DNA of 56,438 bases from Candidatus Woesearchaeota archaeon (GTDB lineage Archaea > Nanobdellota > Nanobdellia > Woesearchaeales > JACPIF01): NCBI GenBank assembly GCA_016188215.1, contig JACPIF010000008.1:1-56438 (forward strand), read 5' to 3'. The notes under the pieces were generated by a model that was not told where the DNA came from, did no database searches, and was given only the letters and a program-made list of their open reading frames with translations. The translations under genes and the position numbers were made by a program. Of this stretch, positions 897 to 52,778 are shown one piece after another (position 1 is the stretch's first letter; the number at the start of each line of letters is the position of its first letter).

Positions 897-945
897 TTAT
901 AATTCTTATCTTGATTTAATGATTTATACTACAATGCGGATTTGC

Positions 946-1048
946 GTTGGGAAACCCACACTGTGCCAAGAGTCCGCGATTCCAGCTGTGGCCTTGCGGT
1001 TCGCGGACCATATATAGTCAGCTCAGCTTTGCTGAGCTGGTTCTGCTC
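946..1048 (+). repeat. Three-hairpin intergenic element, family 1 copy 1
   Basis: The 264-base gap between the HerA-like gene and prs holds this element. Hairpin 1 is weak (TGGG 948-951 with CCCA 955-958). Hairpin 2 spans 972-1008 (37 nt), with end arms GTCCGCGA and TCGCGGAC. Hairpin 3 is CAGCTCAGC (1019-1027), loop TTT, GCTGAGCTG (1031-1039), followed by CTGCTCATTT. Copy 2 near 30.95-31.05 kb carries the same order on the other strand, with paired changes in hairpin 3. Function is unknown; it could be a structured RNA, a small non-autonomous mobile element, or a transcription-termination and mRNA-end structure. Confidence 0.7.
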
Positions 1049-1128
1049 ATTTAGTTTAACAAGTTACCGAGTTATTTTTATGATTTTTTATGATTTATTT
1101 TTATTTTTGATGCTAAGCTGGACGAAAA

Positions 1129-16873: not shown

Positions 16874-16906
16874 TCTATTTTCTCTGAACTATTTAATTTG
16901 CATACT

Positions 16907-16984
16907 GGCGCGAACTGGCGCGCCTAATATGTCCGCTTATCATAGCTGTATGTTTGCGATAGCGGACAGTTGCAGCATCGTGCT
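16907..16984 (+). repeat. Three-hairpin intergenic element, family 1 copy 3
   Basis: Between sufC and nifS. Hairpin 1 is GGCGCG (16907-16912), loop AACTGG, CGCGCC (16919-16924). Hairpin 2 spans 16931-16967 (37 nt) with arms GTCCGCT and AGCGGAC and an internal TAGCTGT that matches copy 1. The third hairpin is short (AGCA, loop TCG, TGCT) and runs into the sufC stop codon. The AATATGTCC lead-in is shared with the 51.4 kb copy. Confidence 0.6.
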
Positions 16985-17741
16985 ATACTCTTATCTGCTC
17001 CCTCACGAAATCATAGCCTTTGTTCTCAATCTGCTCAGCCAATTCATGACCGCCTGATATTACTATTTTTCCATCAATGAGTACGTGGACCCTGTCTGGT
17101 TTTATATACTTTAATATGCGTTGGTAGTGCGTAATTAGCATTACTCCCATTTCTGGACCTCTCAGGGTGTTGATGCCTTCCGCTACTGTCTTCAACGAGT
17201 CAATATCCAAGCCTGAATCTGTCTCGTCAAGGATGGCGATTTCAGGATGCAGGATGGCAAGCTGCAATATCTCCATACGTTTCTTCTCGCCGCCTGAAAA
17301 TCCCTCATTCAGGTAGCGCATTGAAAAATTCTGCTCAATTTTTAGCTGAGCCATCTTGTCCTTGAGCAGCTTGAGGAATTCAGGGACTGTAGCCTGCTTC
17401 AGGCCCCTGCTTTCGCGCTTTGCATTTAATGCAGTCCTCATGAAGTTGCTGACGCTCACTCCTGGAATCTCGCTAGGATACTGGAAACTTAGGAATAGCC
17501 CATTGCGGGCACGCTCATCCGGCTTCATCTTCAAAACATCCTGGCCATGCAGCCATATCTCGCCTTTTGTTACTATATACTTCGGATGGCCCATCAAGGT
17601 GTAAGCCAGCGTGCTCTTCCCTGAGCCGTTTGGGCCCATAATTGCATTCACCTCGCCCTTGTTGATGGACAGGCTTATGCCTTTAAGTATCTCAATCCCG
17701 TCTACCTCTACATGCAAATCCTTAATGATTAGATCGCTCAT
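16983..17741 (-). CDS. sufC: SufC ATPase of the SufBCD complex
   Basis: A 252-residue ABC-type ATPase that powers the SufBCD Fe-S scaffold. It has Walker A in IMGPNGSGKSTL (about residues 35-46), the Q-loop FLSFQYPSEIPGVSV, the signature NEGFSGGEKKR and Walker B/D-loop IAILDETDSGLDIDSL, then the His switch in LITHYQRI. Length is usual. It follows the SufU-like gene with 11 bases between them in the suf operon. Confidence 0.96.
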   Translation of the reverse strand: MSDLIIKDLHVEVDGIEILKGISLSINKGEVNAIMGPNGSGKSTLAYTLMGHPKYIVTKGEIWLHGQDVLKMKPDERARNGLFLSFQYPSEIPGVSVSNFMRTALNAKRESRGLKQATVPEFLKLLKDKMAQLKIEQNFSMRYLNEGFSGGEKKRMEILQLAILHPEIAILDETDSGLDIDSLKTVAEGINTLRGPEMGVMLITHYQRILKYIKPDRVHVLIDGKIVISGGHELAEQIENKGYDFVREQIRV

Positions 17742-30926: not shown

Positions 30927-30949
30927 AAGATAAAACAAAAAATGAGCAG

Positions 30950-31053
30950 GACTCAGCCAAGCTAAAGCTTGGCTGCTGTGCGAGTGTCCGCGAACAACAA
31001 GGCTTACAGCTGGAATCGCGGACCGCCCCATGGTGGGCGCGCAGTTCGCGCTC
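30950..31053 (-). repeat. Three-hairpin intergenic element, family 1 copy 2 (reverse)
   Basis: Reads on the minus strand, between the two transketolase halves. Hairpin 1 is GCGCG (31047-31051 strand partner 31037-31041) around AACTG. Hairpin 2 spans 30986-31023 (38 nt), closely matching copy 1, with arms GTCCGCGA and TCGCGGAC. Hairpin 3 is CAGCCAAGC, loop TTTA, GCTTGGCTG (30954-30975). The stems of hairpin 3 differ from copy 1 at two positions on each side and still pair. Confidence 0.7.
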
Positions 31054-31092
31054 AGTATGCTATTAAAGAAAAGTTATATCAAATTCATCAAC

Positions 31093-33839: not shown

Positions 33840-33865
33840 ACCGGAAAGATTTGCATGACTATTCC

Positions 33866-33940
33866 AATATGTCCTCAATCCATGGAAATCAAAGATTTCC
33901 AGGGTGCCAAAAATGCATAGCATTTTTTAGCACGACGGAC
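33866..33940. repeat. Hairpin pair after the flavin protein gene
   Basis: The 148-base gap holds TGGAAATC (33883-33890), loop AAA, GATTTCCA (33894-33901), then GTGC-C-AAAAATGC (33904-33916), loop ATA, GCATTTTT-TA-GCAC (33920-33933). The lead-in CAATATGTCC is shared with the 51.4 kb element, and GGAC closes the block. The second stem with T-run may be a terminator. Confidence 0.4.
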
Positions 33941-33987
33941 TGCCTGTTTACGTAACGTTTTTATAGGCTATTCTAACTCTCTATAAT

Positions 33988-36886: not shown

Positions 36887-36940
36887 GCGAAAACCTTCGG
36901 TTTTCGATACTAGGAACAAGTTCCTATGTTGTGGAACCAG
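36887..36940. repeat. Two-hairpin intergenic element, family 2 copy B
   Basis: CGAAAACC (36888-36895), loop TTC, GGTTTTCG (36899-36906), then TAGGAAC (36911-36917), loop AA, GTTCCTA (36920-36926), then TTGTGGAACC and a T-run. The order and several blocks match 11003-11055, and the first stem differs in a paired way. A TATA-like TCTTTTTAAACC follows directly, about 22 bases before the ATG at 36976. Confidence 0.5.
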
Positions 36941-51277: not shown

Positions 51278-51362
51278 ACTTTGGAATACCCCCTATACAG
51301 AATAGTCTGAGTTGATATATAAAGGTTGCTTGAAGAGTACGAATAACAACTAACAACTCGCA

Positions 51363-51460
51363 CCGCTTCGCGGAAACTGTTTTCAATATGTCCCCCGATT
51401 TAATGTAACATGCCATTCGGGGGACTCACTCGCGCCGTGAGACGAGGTTTACCTCGTCTC
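51363..51460 (+). repeat. Three-hairpin intergenic element, family 1 copy 4
   Basis: Lies in the 283-base divergent gap. Hairpin 1 is CCGC (51363-51366), loop TTC, GCGG (51370-51373). Hairpin 2 spans 51390-51425 (36 nt), with arms GTCCCCCGA and TCGGGGGAC. Hairpin 3 is GAGACGAGG (51439-51447), loop TTTA, CCTCGTCTC (51452-51460). Sequences differ from copies 1-2, but order, hairpin-2 length and the TTTA loop are kept. Confidence 0.55.
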
Positions 51461-51560
51461 TTCTCCGCAGGATGTCCTTTTTATCACTCCTTTTACAAAT
51501 CCTAAGTTCCTTTACTATATCCATAACGTTTAAATACGGTGCTGAGCCTCTTTTCCTATA

Positions 51561-52778
51561 ATGGATATTGATACCATGAGGAGGGTAGATTACTGGATAG
51601 GAATACCCATAACATTCTTGCTTTCCATATTACATGCAATAGGGAAGCTGTTTGGCCGCAGGCAGGCTCTGCAGCCGCGGAAGTTCATGTTCATTGAGAT
51701 TTCCGAGATGGGCTCAACTATTCTGGCGTATTCTTCCATGTCGTACATCAAGAAAAAGTATCCAGGGGCGCAGCTGTATTTCCTGATATTCAAGAAAAAC
51801 AGGGAGAGCATTGACATGCTGAAGATAGTGCCGCCTGAGAACGTGATAACGATCAGCGACAAATCATTTTTTGCATTTACAGCAGACACGCTCAAGGCTG
51901 TCTGGAGGATGAGGCGTGAGAGATTAGACGTGTCATTTGACCTTGAATTATTCTCAAGGTTCTCTACAATTATGAATTACCTGAGCGGTGCAAAGACAAG
52001 GGTCGGGTTCCATAACTTCACAGCAGAAGGGTTGTACAGGGGAAGCCTGCAGACGCATGATGTCATGTATAATGCATATTACCACATGAGCCAGAATTTC
52101 ATGGCGCTTGTCAAGGCTTTGGAAGGGCCACATGAAATACCCATGCTTAAGATGGCAATAGACAAGAAGGATATAAAGGTACCTAAGATCATCAGCGAGC
52201 AGAGAGAGAAGGATGCAATCATGAAGAGGCTGCAGAGCCTGAACCCTGCAATTTCAAAAGAGAAGAGGATAATCCTGCTGAATCCGGGAGCCAGCAAGCT
52301 ATTGCCGCTGCGGGAATGGCCGCTGCACTACTACAAGGAGGTTGCGCAGAAATTAGTTGCGGACAAGAACACATTTGTAGTGGTAACAGGGTTGAAGGGC
52401 GACAAGGAATATGCGCAGGCAATCTGCAGCTATGCGAAAAACGAGAGATGCATTGATTTTACAGGAATGACGTATTCGCTTCGGGAGCTCGTTGACCTCT
52501 ATAACATATCTGACATGCTTATCACCAATGATTCAGGGCCTGCGCATTTCTCTGCATTGACAAATATAAGGACTATTGTATTTTACGGGCCAGAAACTCC
52601 AGCATTGTACGGGCCGCTGGGAAATAATTATACTGCGTTATATTCAAACTTTGCATGCTCTCCCTGCGTGTCTGCCTATAATCACAGGAAAAGCCCATGC
52701 ACAAATAACAGATGTTTGCAGGTCATTACACCCGAGACTGTCCTTACACTTGTAAAGGCTCATTTTGCGCGAGGCTAA
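51561..52778 (+). CDS. GT9-family heptosyltransferase-like glycosyltransferase
   Basis: A 405-residue GT9 enzyme. The N-terminal Rossmann part has FIEISEMGSTILAYSSMSYIKKKYP; the donor site is LLNPGASKLLPLREWPLHYY, then ITNDSGPAHFSALTNIRTIVFYGPETPALYGP. A C-terminal Cys cluster (ACSPCVSAYNHRKSPC, then NRCLQ) is common to this group. A TATA-like GTTTAAATACGG (51529-51540) lies 21 bases before the ATG. It heads a run of three GT9 genes. Confidence 0.87.
   Translation: MDIDTMRRVDYWIGIPITFLLSILHAIGKLFGRRQALQPRKFMFIEISEMGSTILAYSSMSYIKKKYPGAQLYFLIFKKNRESIDMLKIVPPENVITISDKSFFAFTADTLKAVWRMRRERLDVSFDLELFSRFSTIMNYLSGAKTRVGFHNFTAEGLYRGSLQTHDVMYNAYYHMSQNFMALVKALEGPHEIPMLKMAIDKKDIKVPKIISEQREKDAIMKRLQSLNPAISKEKRIILLNPGASKLLPLREWPLHYYKEVAQKLVADKNTFVVVTGLKGDKEYAQAICSYAKNERCIDFTGMTYSLRELVDLYNISDMLITNDSGPAHFSALTNIRTIVFYGPETPALYGPLGNNYTALYSNFACSPCVSAYNHRKSPCTNNRCLQVITPETVLTLVKAHFARG

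Follow-up and report, generated by a model that had tools for sequence, protein, structure and literature searches.

Modular, nested hairpin elements dispersed through the intergenic spacers of a Woesearchaeota genome

The archaeal genome studied here (1.11 Mb in 13 contigs, 91% complete) carries a family of hairpin elements that are dispersed, nested and in part inverted. Its modules, its nesting and its strong orientation with respect to genes take the family beyond the dispersed three-hairpin family with covarying stems that had been described, from a sequence-only reading, at four places in the window (the whole 56,438-nucleotide stretch analyzed, C11:1-56438). On balance, these elements are probably lineage-specific, non-autonomous, nested hairpin repeats of ~120-250 bp that are built almost wholly of palindromes. 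The genome contains archaeal markers, namely an archaeal SRP RNA, topoisomerase VI, ribosomal protein S28e and a XerA-type recombinase.

All four elements of the sequence-only reading were found at the places and on the strands given there, each with the order h1-h2-h3 (Table 1), whereas several details had to be reassigned. The nearly identical h2 sequences, attributed to copies 1 and 2, belong to the elements listed as starting at 946 and 30950, the labels having been swapped, and the paired change from TC/GA to CA/TG in h3 is correct for this same pair. The weak third hairpin, assigned to copy 3, is that of the element at 16907, and the 9-pair third hairpin claimed for the elements is present in copies 1, 3 and 4, copy 2 having only 4 pairs. 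The first hairpin of copy 1 has decayed to a stem of ~4 pairs; in copy 2, whose two neighbors, sufC and a gene for cysteine desulfurase, are minus-strand genes, the h2 arms are the variant GTCCGCTT/ATAGCGGAC. Copy 4, in a spacer that separates divergent genes, has the usual layout despite its low score, and its GTCCCCCG arm was found in eight other copies. A fifth, interrupted copy is missing from the earlier list, its h2 loop being filled by a double hairpin. The solitary double hairpin lies in a spacer of divergent genes and resembles units nested elsewhere, its membership being judged by inspection only. As to neighboring genes, the PRPP synthetase gene at 1161-2177 of the window had only bacterial homologues among the 80 genome-contig loci listed, the best listed match showing 49% identity to a Clostridiales MAG, and this gene was possibly acquired from bacteria. 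An archaeal gene at 51561-52778 resembles LPS heptosyltransferases (TIGR02195, 96 bits, below the cut-off) and adjoins a sugar nucleotidyltransferase-like gene.

Table 1. Hairpin elements in the window. Copies are oriented by their outer modules; bits are scores of the h2 covariance model (R1).
Feature	Coordinates	Strand	Parts	Basis
Copy 1	935..1052	+	left end TGCGGA 935-940; h1 ~946-959; h2 972-1008; h3 1019-1039 (perfect 9-pair stem); right end TGCTCATT to ~1050	read from sequence; 50 bits
Copy 2	16897..16990	+	end motif TTTGCA; h1 GGCGCG/CGCGCC 16907-16924; h2 16931-16967; third hairpin 16974-16984	sequence; 39.3 bits
Copy 3	30942..31063	-	h1 31037-31051; h2 30986-31023; h3 30954-30975 (perfect 9-pair stem); right end TGCTCAT ~30942	sequence; 48.1 bits
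Copy 4	51355..51472	+	h1 CCGC/GCGG 51363-51373; h2 51390-51425 (GTCCCCCGA arms); h3 51439-51460 (perfect 9-pair stem)	sequence; 15.0 bits only
Fifth copy	~33850..33950	+	TTTGCATGACTATTCCAATAT, then GTCC 33871-33874 ... GGAC 33937-33940; double hairpin 33883-33901 + 33909-33927	
Solitary double hairpin	36887..36927	.	CGAAAACC-TTC-GGTTTTCG, then TAGGAAC-AA-GTTCCTA	

The covariance-model search that had been suggested for the genome and its relatives yielded many more copies in the genome itself: the central hairpin h2 (GTCC…GGAC, 35-40 nt) was detected at no fewer than 59 places (at least 59, on 10 of the 13 contigs), most of them at E < 0.01, with matches on two strands counted once, one partial match excluded and a few weakly scoring places in the tail retained on their layout. 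A joint alignment of the four reported copies missed modules that were captured when h2 and the right hairpin were aligned separately. The exact-arm pattern GTCCSCGAN{12,32}TCGSGGAC occurred at 36 places genome-wide and its reversed control at none, which together with the family covariance model rules out chance hairpins as the explanation, and BLAST with copy 3 as the query returned 19 places at E<=10, some of which are not separate copies. The length of h2 was 35-40 nt in all copies except one with a hairpin insert (C3:19914-19983), in which h2 measures 70 nt and further hairpins lie within the loop. Since single perfect hairpins in the window were not in excess of shuffled sequence (9 as compared to 1-9), the evidence resides in the family and not in any one hairpin. 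The copies are located in intergenic spacers, are shorter than a few hundred bp and have no coding capacity, and by copy number, size and lack of coding capacity the family fits the small non-autonomous interspersed repeats (MITE/BOX-like class).

Outside this genome, the h2 covariance model found no credible copy in 98 relatives (one chance-level match), the exact-arm pattern gave one match in 192 genomes of the same order, read as chance (G045), and a stricter pattern gave none in a set of 233 genomes from the order and class, these sets overlapping with those of the other searches of relatives. Pattern searches of GTDB contigs and IMG/VR and searches of plasmids and phages did not find the element either; the GTDB, IMG/VR and 233-genome patterns require the commonest loop and would overlook relatives whose loop is very different. 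The genomes searched represent the same order and class, none of them being from the archaeon's own family. Because the element was absent from the relatives searched, the family is either recent or rapidly diverging. A known RNA family was ruled out by searches with Rfam 15, which gave no match in the window at the gathering score and none to the copies within a further 78 kb from other loci, where only the SRP RNA and a tRNA were matched.

Each copy follows the same layout, namely end motif, left hairpin or hairpins, h2, right hairpin and end motif. The end motif AA(T/C)(TTG/GAG)CA faces inward at both sides and is short, with no long repeat; by eye, the two ends do not covary, and an outer covarying GCA...TGC stem was dropped, as the ends do not agree in their choice of G or C (again by eye). 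The left module consists of one GCGCG/CGCGC hairpin or of the pair CCGCGC...GCGG and GCGCTCG...CGCGC, typical h2 sequences read GTCC(G/C)CGA...TCG(G/C)GGAC around a loop of ~20 nt, and the right hairpin usually has a TTTA or TTCA loop; the left spacer is often ACTGTGNNCA or CAATAT, the right one often TGTTCACAGT or CGTNACCNCGGAG. Some stems, e.g., GAGACGAGATTTATCTCGTCTC and TGCGTTGGG...CCCAACGCA, lie on opposite sides of h2 in different copies. Of the 59 copies, 8 have h2 itself inverted relative to the outer modules, and the margins in score are 7.6-36 bits.

Extra double hairpins lie inside the loops and spacers of several copies, and both filled and empty forms are present. An identical double hairpin is nested in the right hairpin at C7:81840 and C2:131254, which read GAGA-TTT-[insert]-TTT-ATCTC and GACA-TTT-[insert]-TTT-ATGTC, respectively (empty form, e.g., GAGATTTATCTC); this composite is common to both places and therefore points to copying. 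At C2:245018 the arrangement is GCGCG-AAC-[insert]-AAC-TGCGCGC, with GCGCGAACTGCGCGC as its empty counterpart. A 3-nt duplication was observed at two nested insertions. For the core AAATGC-N3-GCATTT 12 occurrences were counted, and none for the control: five belong to modelled three-hairpin copies, and the remaining ones to interrupted copies (L092, L093), to hairpin-rich stretches elsewhere or possibly to chance. Two loci, L085 and L089, have a hairpin-rich stretch at ~1390-1620 that includes this core, with no recognisable three-hairpin element.

The stems covary far beyond shuffled and slid controls. The h2 arms are 98.9% complementary while the loops are 40-46% identical between copies, and in 49 h2 sequences 99.7% of cells were paired and 30 cells had changed on both sides, with a covariation of 0.231 as compared to 0.046 in shuffled alignments (0 of 500 as high); sliding one arm reduced pairing to < 58%. 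The 36 right hairpins showed two-sided changes at each of their seven pairs (covariation 0.773 as compared to 0.198, 0 of 500). Right hairpins were chosen partly for pairing and h2 partly via its arms, which inflates the percentages of paired cells, the diversity of pair types being less affected by this choice. G-U pairs are nearly absent: 65 stems with a score >=7, from a search that favours clean stems, contained five mismatches, among them one G-T on the strand read and one C-A, i.e., a G-U on the other strand. The strands did not differ in mean folding z (-3.71 and -3.75, p 0.77). Because G-U is nearly absent and both strands fold equally well, the paired changes fit hairpins at the DNA level at least as well as selection on RNA. 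Moreover, template switching during replication can generate perfect stems, invert loops and introduce compensatory changes of several bases without any selection (PMC8794818), and therefore the covariation, though real, is by itself no proof of RNA selection. The earlier suggestion that paired change reflects selection on the fold is therefore not compelling: the scarcity of G-U, the equality of the strands and the h2 copies whose loop is turned round while the arms stay intact are footprints of template switching as well.

With regard to gene context, where the flanking genes are co-directional, the outer modules run antiparallel to them 35 times and parallel 6 times, according to uncurated, codon-usage-based gene calls, and with stricter genes (both >=100 aa, within 400 bp) the ratio was 27 to 2 (p 1.6e-6). 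Eleven copies lie in divergent spacers and three in convergent ones, and copies favour spacers upstream of genes. A TATA-like box was present in the gap between element and downstream gene in 8 of 31 co-directional cases as compared to 7 of 9 divergent ones; because such boxes are few in co-directional gaps, many copies probably lie inside transcripts. Flank T-skew, considered as a candidate cause of the orientation, appeared high in co-directional spacers only, as far as the end finder, which missed many copies, could tell. The main alternative is a cis-acting RNA, formed by the strand complementary to that on which h1-h2-h3 is read, as an intercistronic element or 5' leader acting on mRNA processing, stability or translation, with the fold under selection. 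The strong sense bias in co-directional spacers, the few TATA-like boxes there, the stem covariation and the folding z of ~-3.7 argue for it, whereas G-U enrichment and a strand difference are lacking, h2 is invertible, the loop sequences are barely conserved, there is no Rfam match and the element was found in one genome only. The adjacent genes do not share a function either, those checked downstream being mixed and largely housekeeping, and a regulon-type leader was dropped on this ground. As the principal explanation this alternative is rather improbable; the mobile-DNA and the intercistronic RNA readings are not mutually exclusive.

That old duplicated hairpins are kept by replication template switching alone, with neither current mobility nor function, is unlikely: perfect stems, loop inversions and missing G-U intermediates are its signature (PMC8794818), yet it would leave unexplained why the elements reached 59 unrelated spacers, share their end motifs, hold to a constant layout and h2 length and show a sense bias.

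Among candidate enzymes, the Y1 (HUH) transposase (PF01797) had no match in this 91% complete assembly, while 5 of 14 control genomes were positive, which rules out for this assembly mobilisation of the IS200/IS605 or RAYT type by a resident Y1 enzyme. Three tyrosine recombinase genes (PF00589) are present at C2:256455, C13:55270 and C2:5429, one of them a second XerA-like paralogue; XerA is the best fit of the recombinases, and nothing ties the three to the elements. This small genome thus has two XerA-like recombinases, at 1453-2343 of L080 and 1465-2256 of L081, of which one exceeds the XerA family cut-off and the other falls slightly short of it. A reading as sites at which a tyrosine recombinase acts on folded single strands, akin to integron attC, would agree with hairpins that keep their structure while varying in sequence between co-directional genes, with the inversion of h2 and with these recombinase genes, but is very improbable, and integron attC sites proper are ruled out, since a complementary pair of R boxes (RYYYAAC ... 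GTTRRRY) was found in 0 elements, all three recombinases fall below the cut-off of the integron-integrase model TIGR02249 (216.5 and 189.4 vs 265), and single copies lie amid housekeeping genes with no cassette arrays.

Mobile repeats are the reading we prefer, and dispersal, the pattern control, the absence from the relatives searched, covariation, the complementary h2 arms around variable loops, h2 inversion, nesting, the end motif, the scarcity of G-U, the equality of the strands and the sense bias all count for it. Of these, dispersal, nesting and inversion can be seen in the sequence itself. Against it count the lack of a Y1 transposase in the assembly, the fact that empty sites were seen for nested double hairpins and not for the three-hairpin element as a whole, and the position of the copies: passengers would be expected at 3' ends, yet upstream spacers are preferred and only three copies are convergent. 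We propose that the elements would spread as DNA via an enzyme acting in trans that recognises a folded single strand or a cruciform. The hairpins might owe their perfect pairing in part to template switches that copy one arm from the other and/or to recognition of the fold, and the sense bias might arise if one orientation alone were tolerated in transcribed spacers or if insertion targeted DNA opened by transcription. More tentatively, and with the odds against it, the family might represent a new archaeal class of mobile DNA recognised as folded single strands, in which an enzyme swaps hairpins, inverts them and inserts them into loops, and which now shapes host mRNAs from dozens of transcribed spacers in one sense.

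Mitochondria are already known to harbor nested, well-kept hairpin elements, and a few bacteria to have modular repeats; an archaeal counterpart was not found in the literature, which was incompletely covered. The 59 copies with eight inverted h2 and several filled and empty nested sites constitute a compact data set in one genome, which could help to tell whether compensatory changes stem from fold selection or from template-switch repair, the latter being a confound whenever covariation is taken as proof of functional RNA. In addition, the sense bias bears on how genomes tolerate structured insertions within operons.

Like REP/REPIN with RAYT and palindromes derived from IS200/IS605, the archaeal elements are short extragenic palindromes, presumed to be mobilised in trans as single strands (PMC3116915); unlike those, they occur in a genome without a Y1 domain, and by inspection they do not have the REP-type layout of tetranucleotide plus hairpin. 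BOX of Streptococcus pneumoniae is likewise modular, structured, smaller than a few hundred bp, present in dozens of copies in a narrow lineage and mobilised in trans if at all (PMC3049150). However, BOX modules conserve sequence, whereas the archaeal family conserves structure and leaves sequence free, and BOX has pairing terminal inverted repeats and known target duplications (PMC3049150), while in the archaeal family the ends share a short motif and a 3-nt duplication was seen at nested double hairpins. Double-hairpin elements and GC clusters of fungal mitochondria and repetitive hairpin-forming elements of sponge mitochondria (PMC4478555, PMC2800124) are also short, mainly intergenic palindromic elements with double or triple hairpins, whose stems are kept better than their loops and whose palindromes merge and shuffle. 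Short direct repeats have been reported at GC-cluster insertions (PMC4478555, PMC2800124), and the insertion of two adjacent hairpins as a unit in the archaeal elements may be likened to the mitochondrial double-hairpin elements as an analogy of layout. Unlike the mitochondrial elements, the family described here resides on an archaeal chromosome and combines a fixed left-h2-right layout and inward-facing end motifs with a central hairpin that is inverted in some copies and with a strong preference for one sense with respect to genes.
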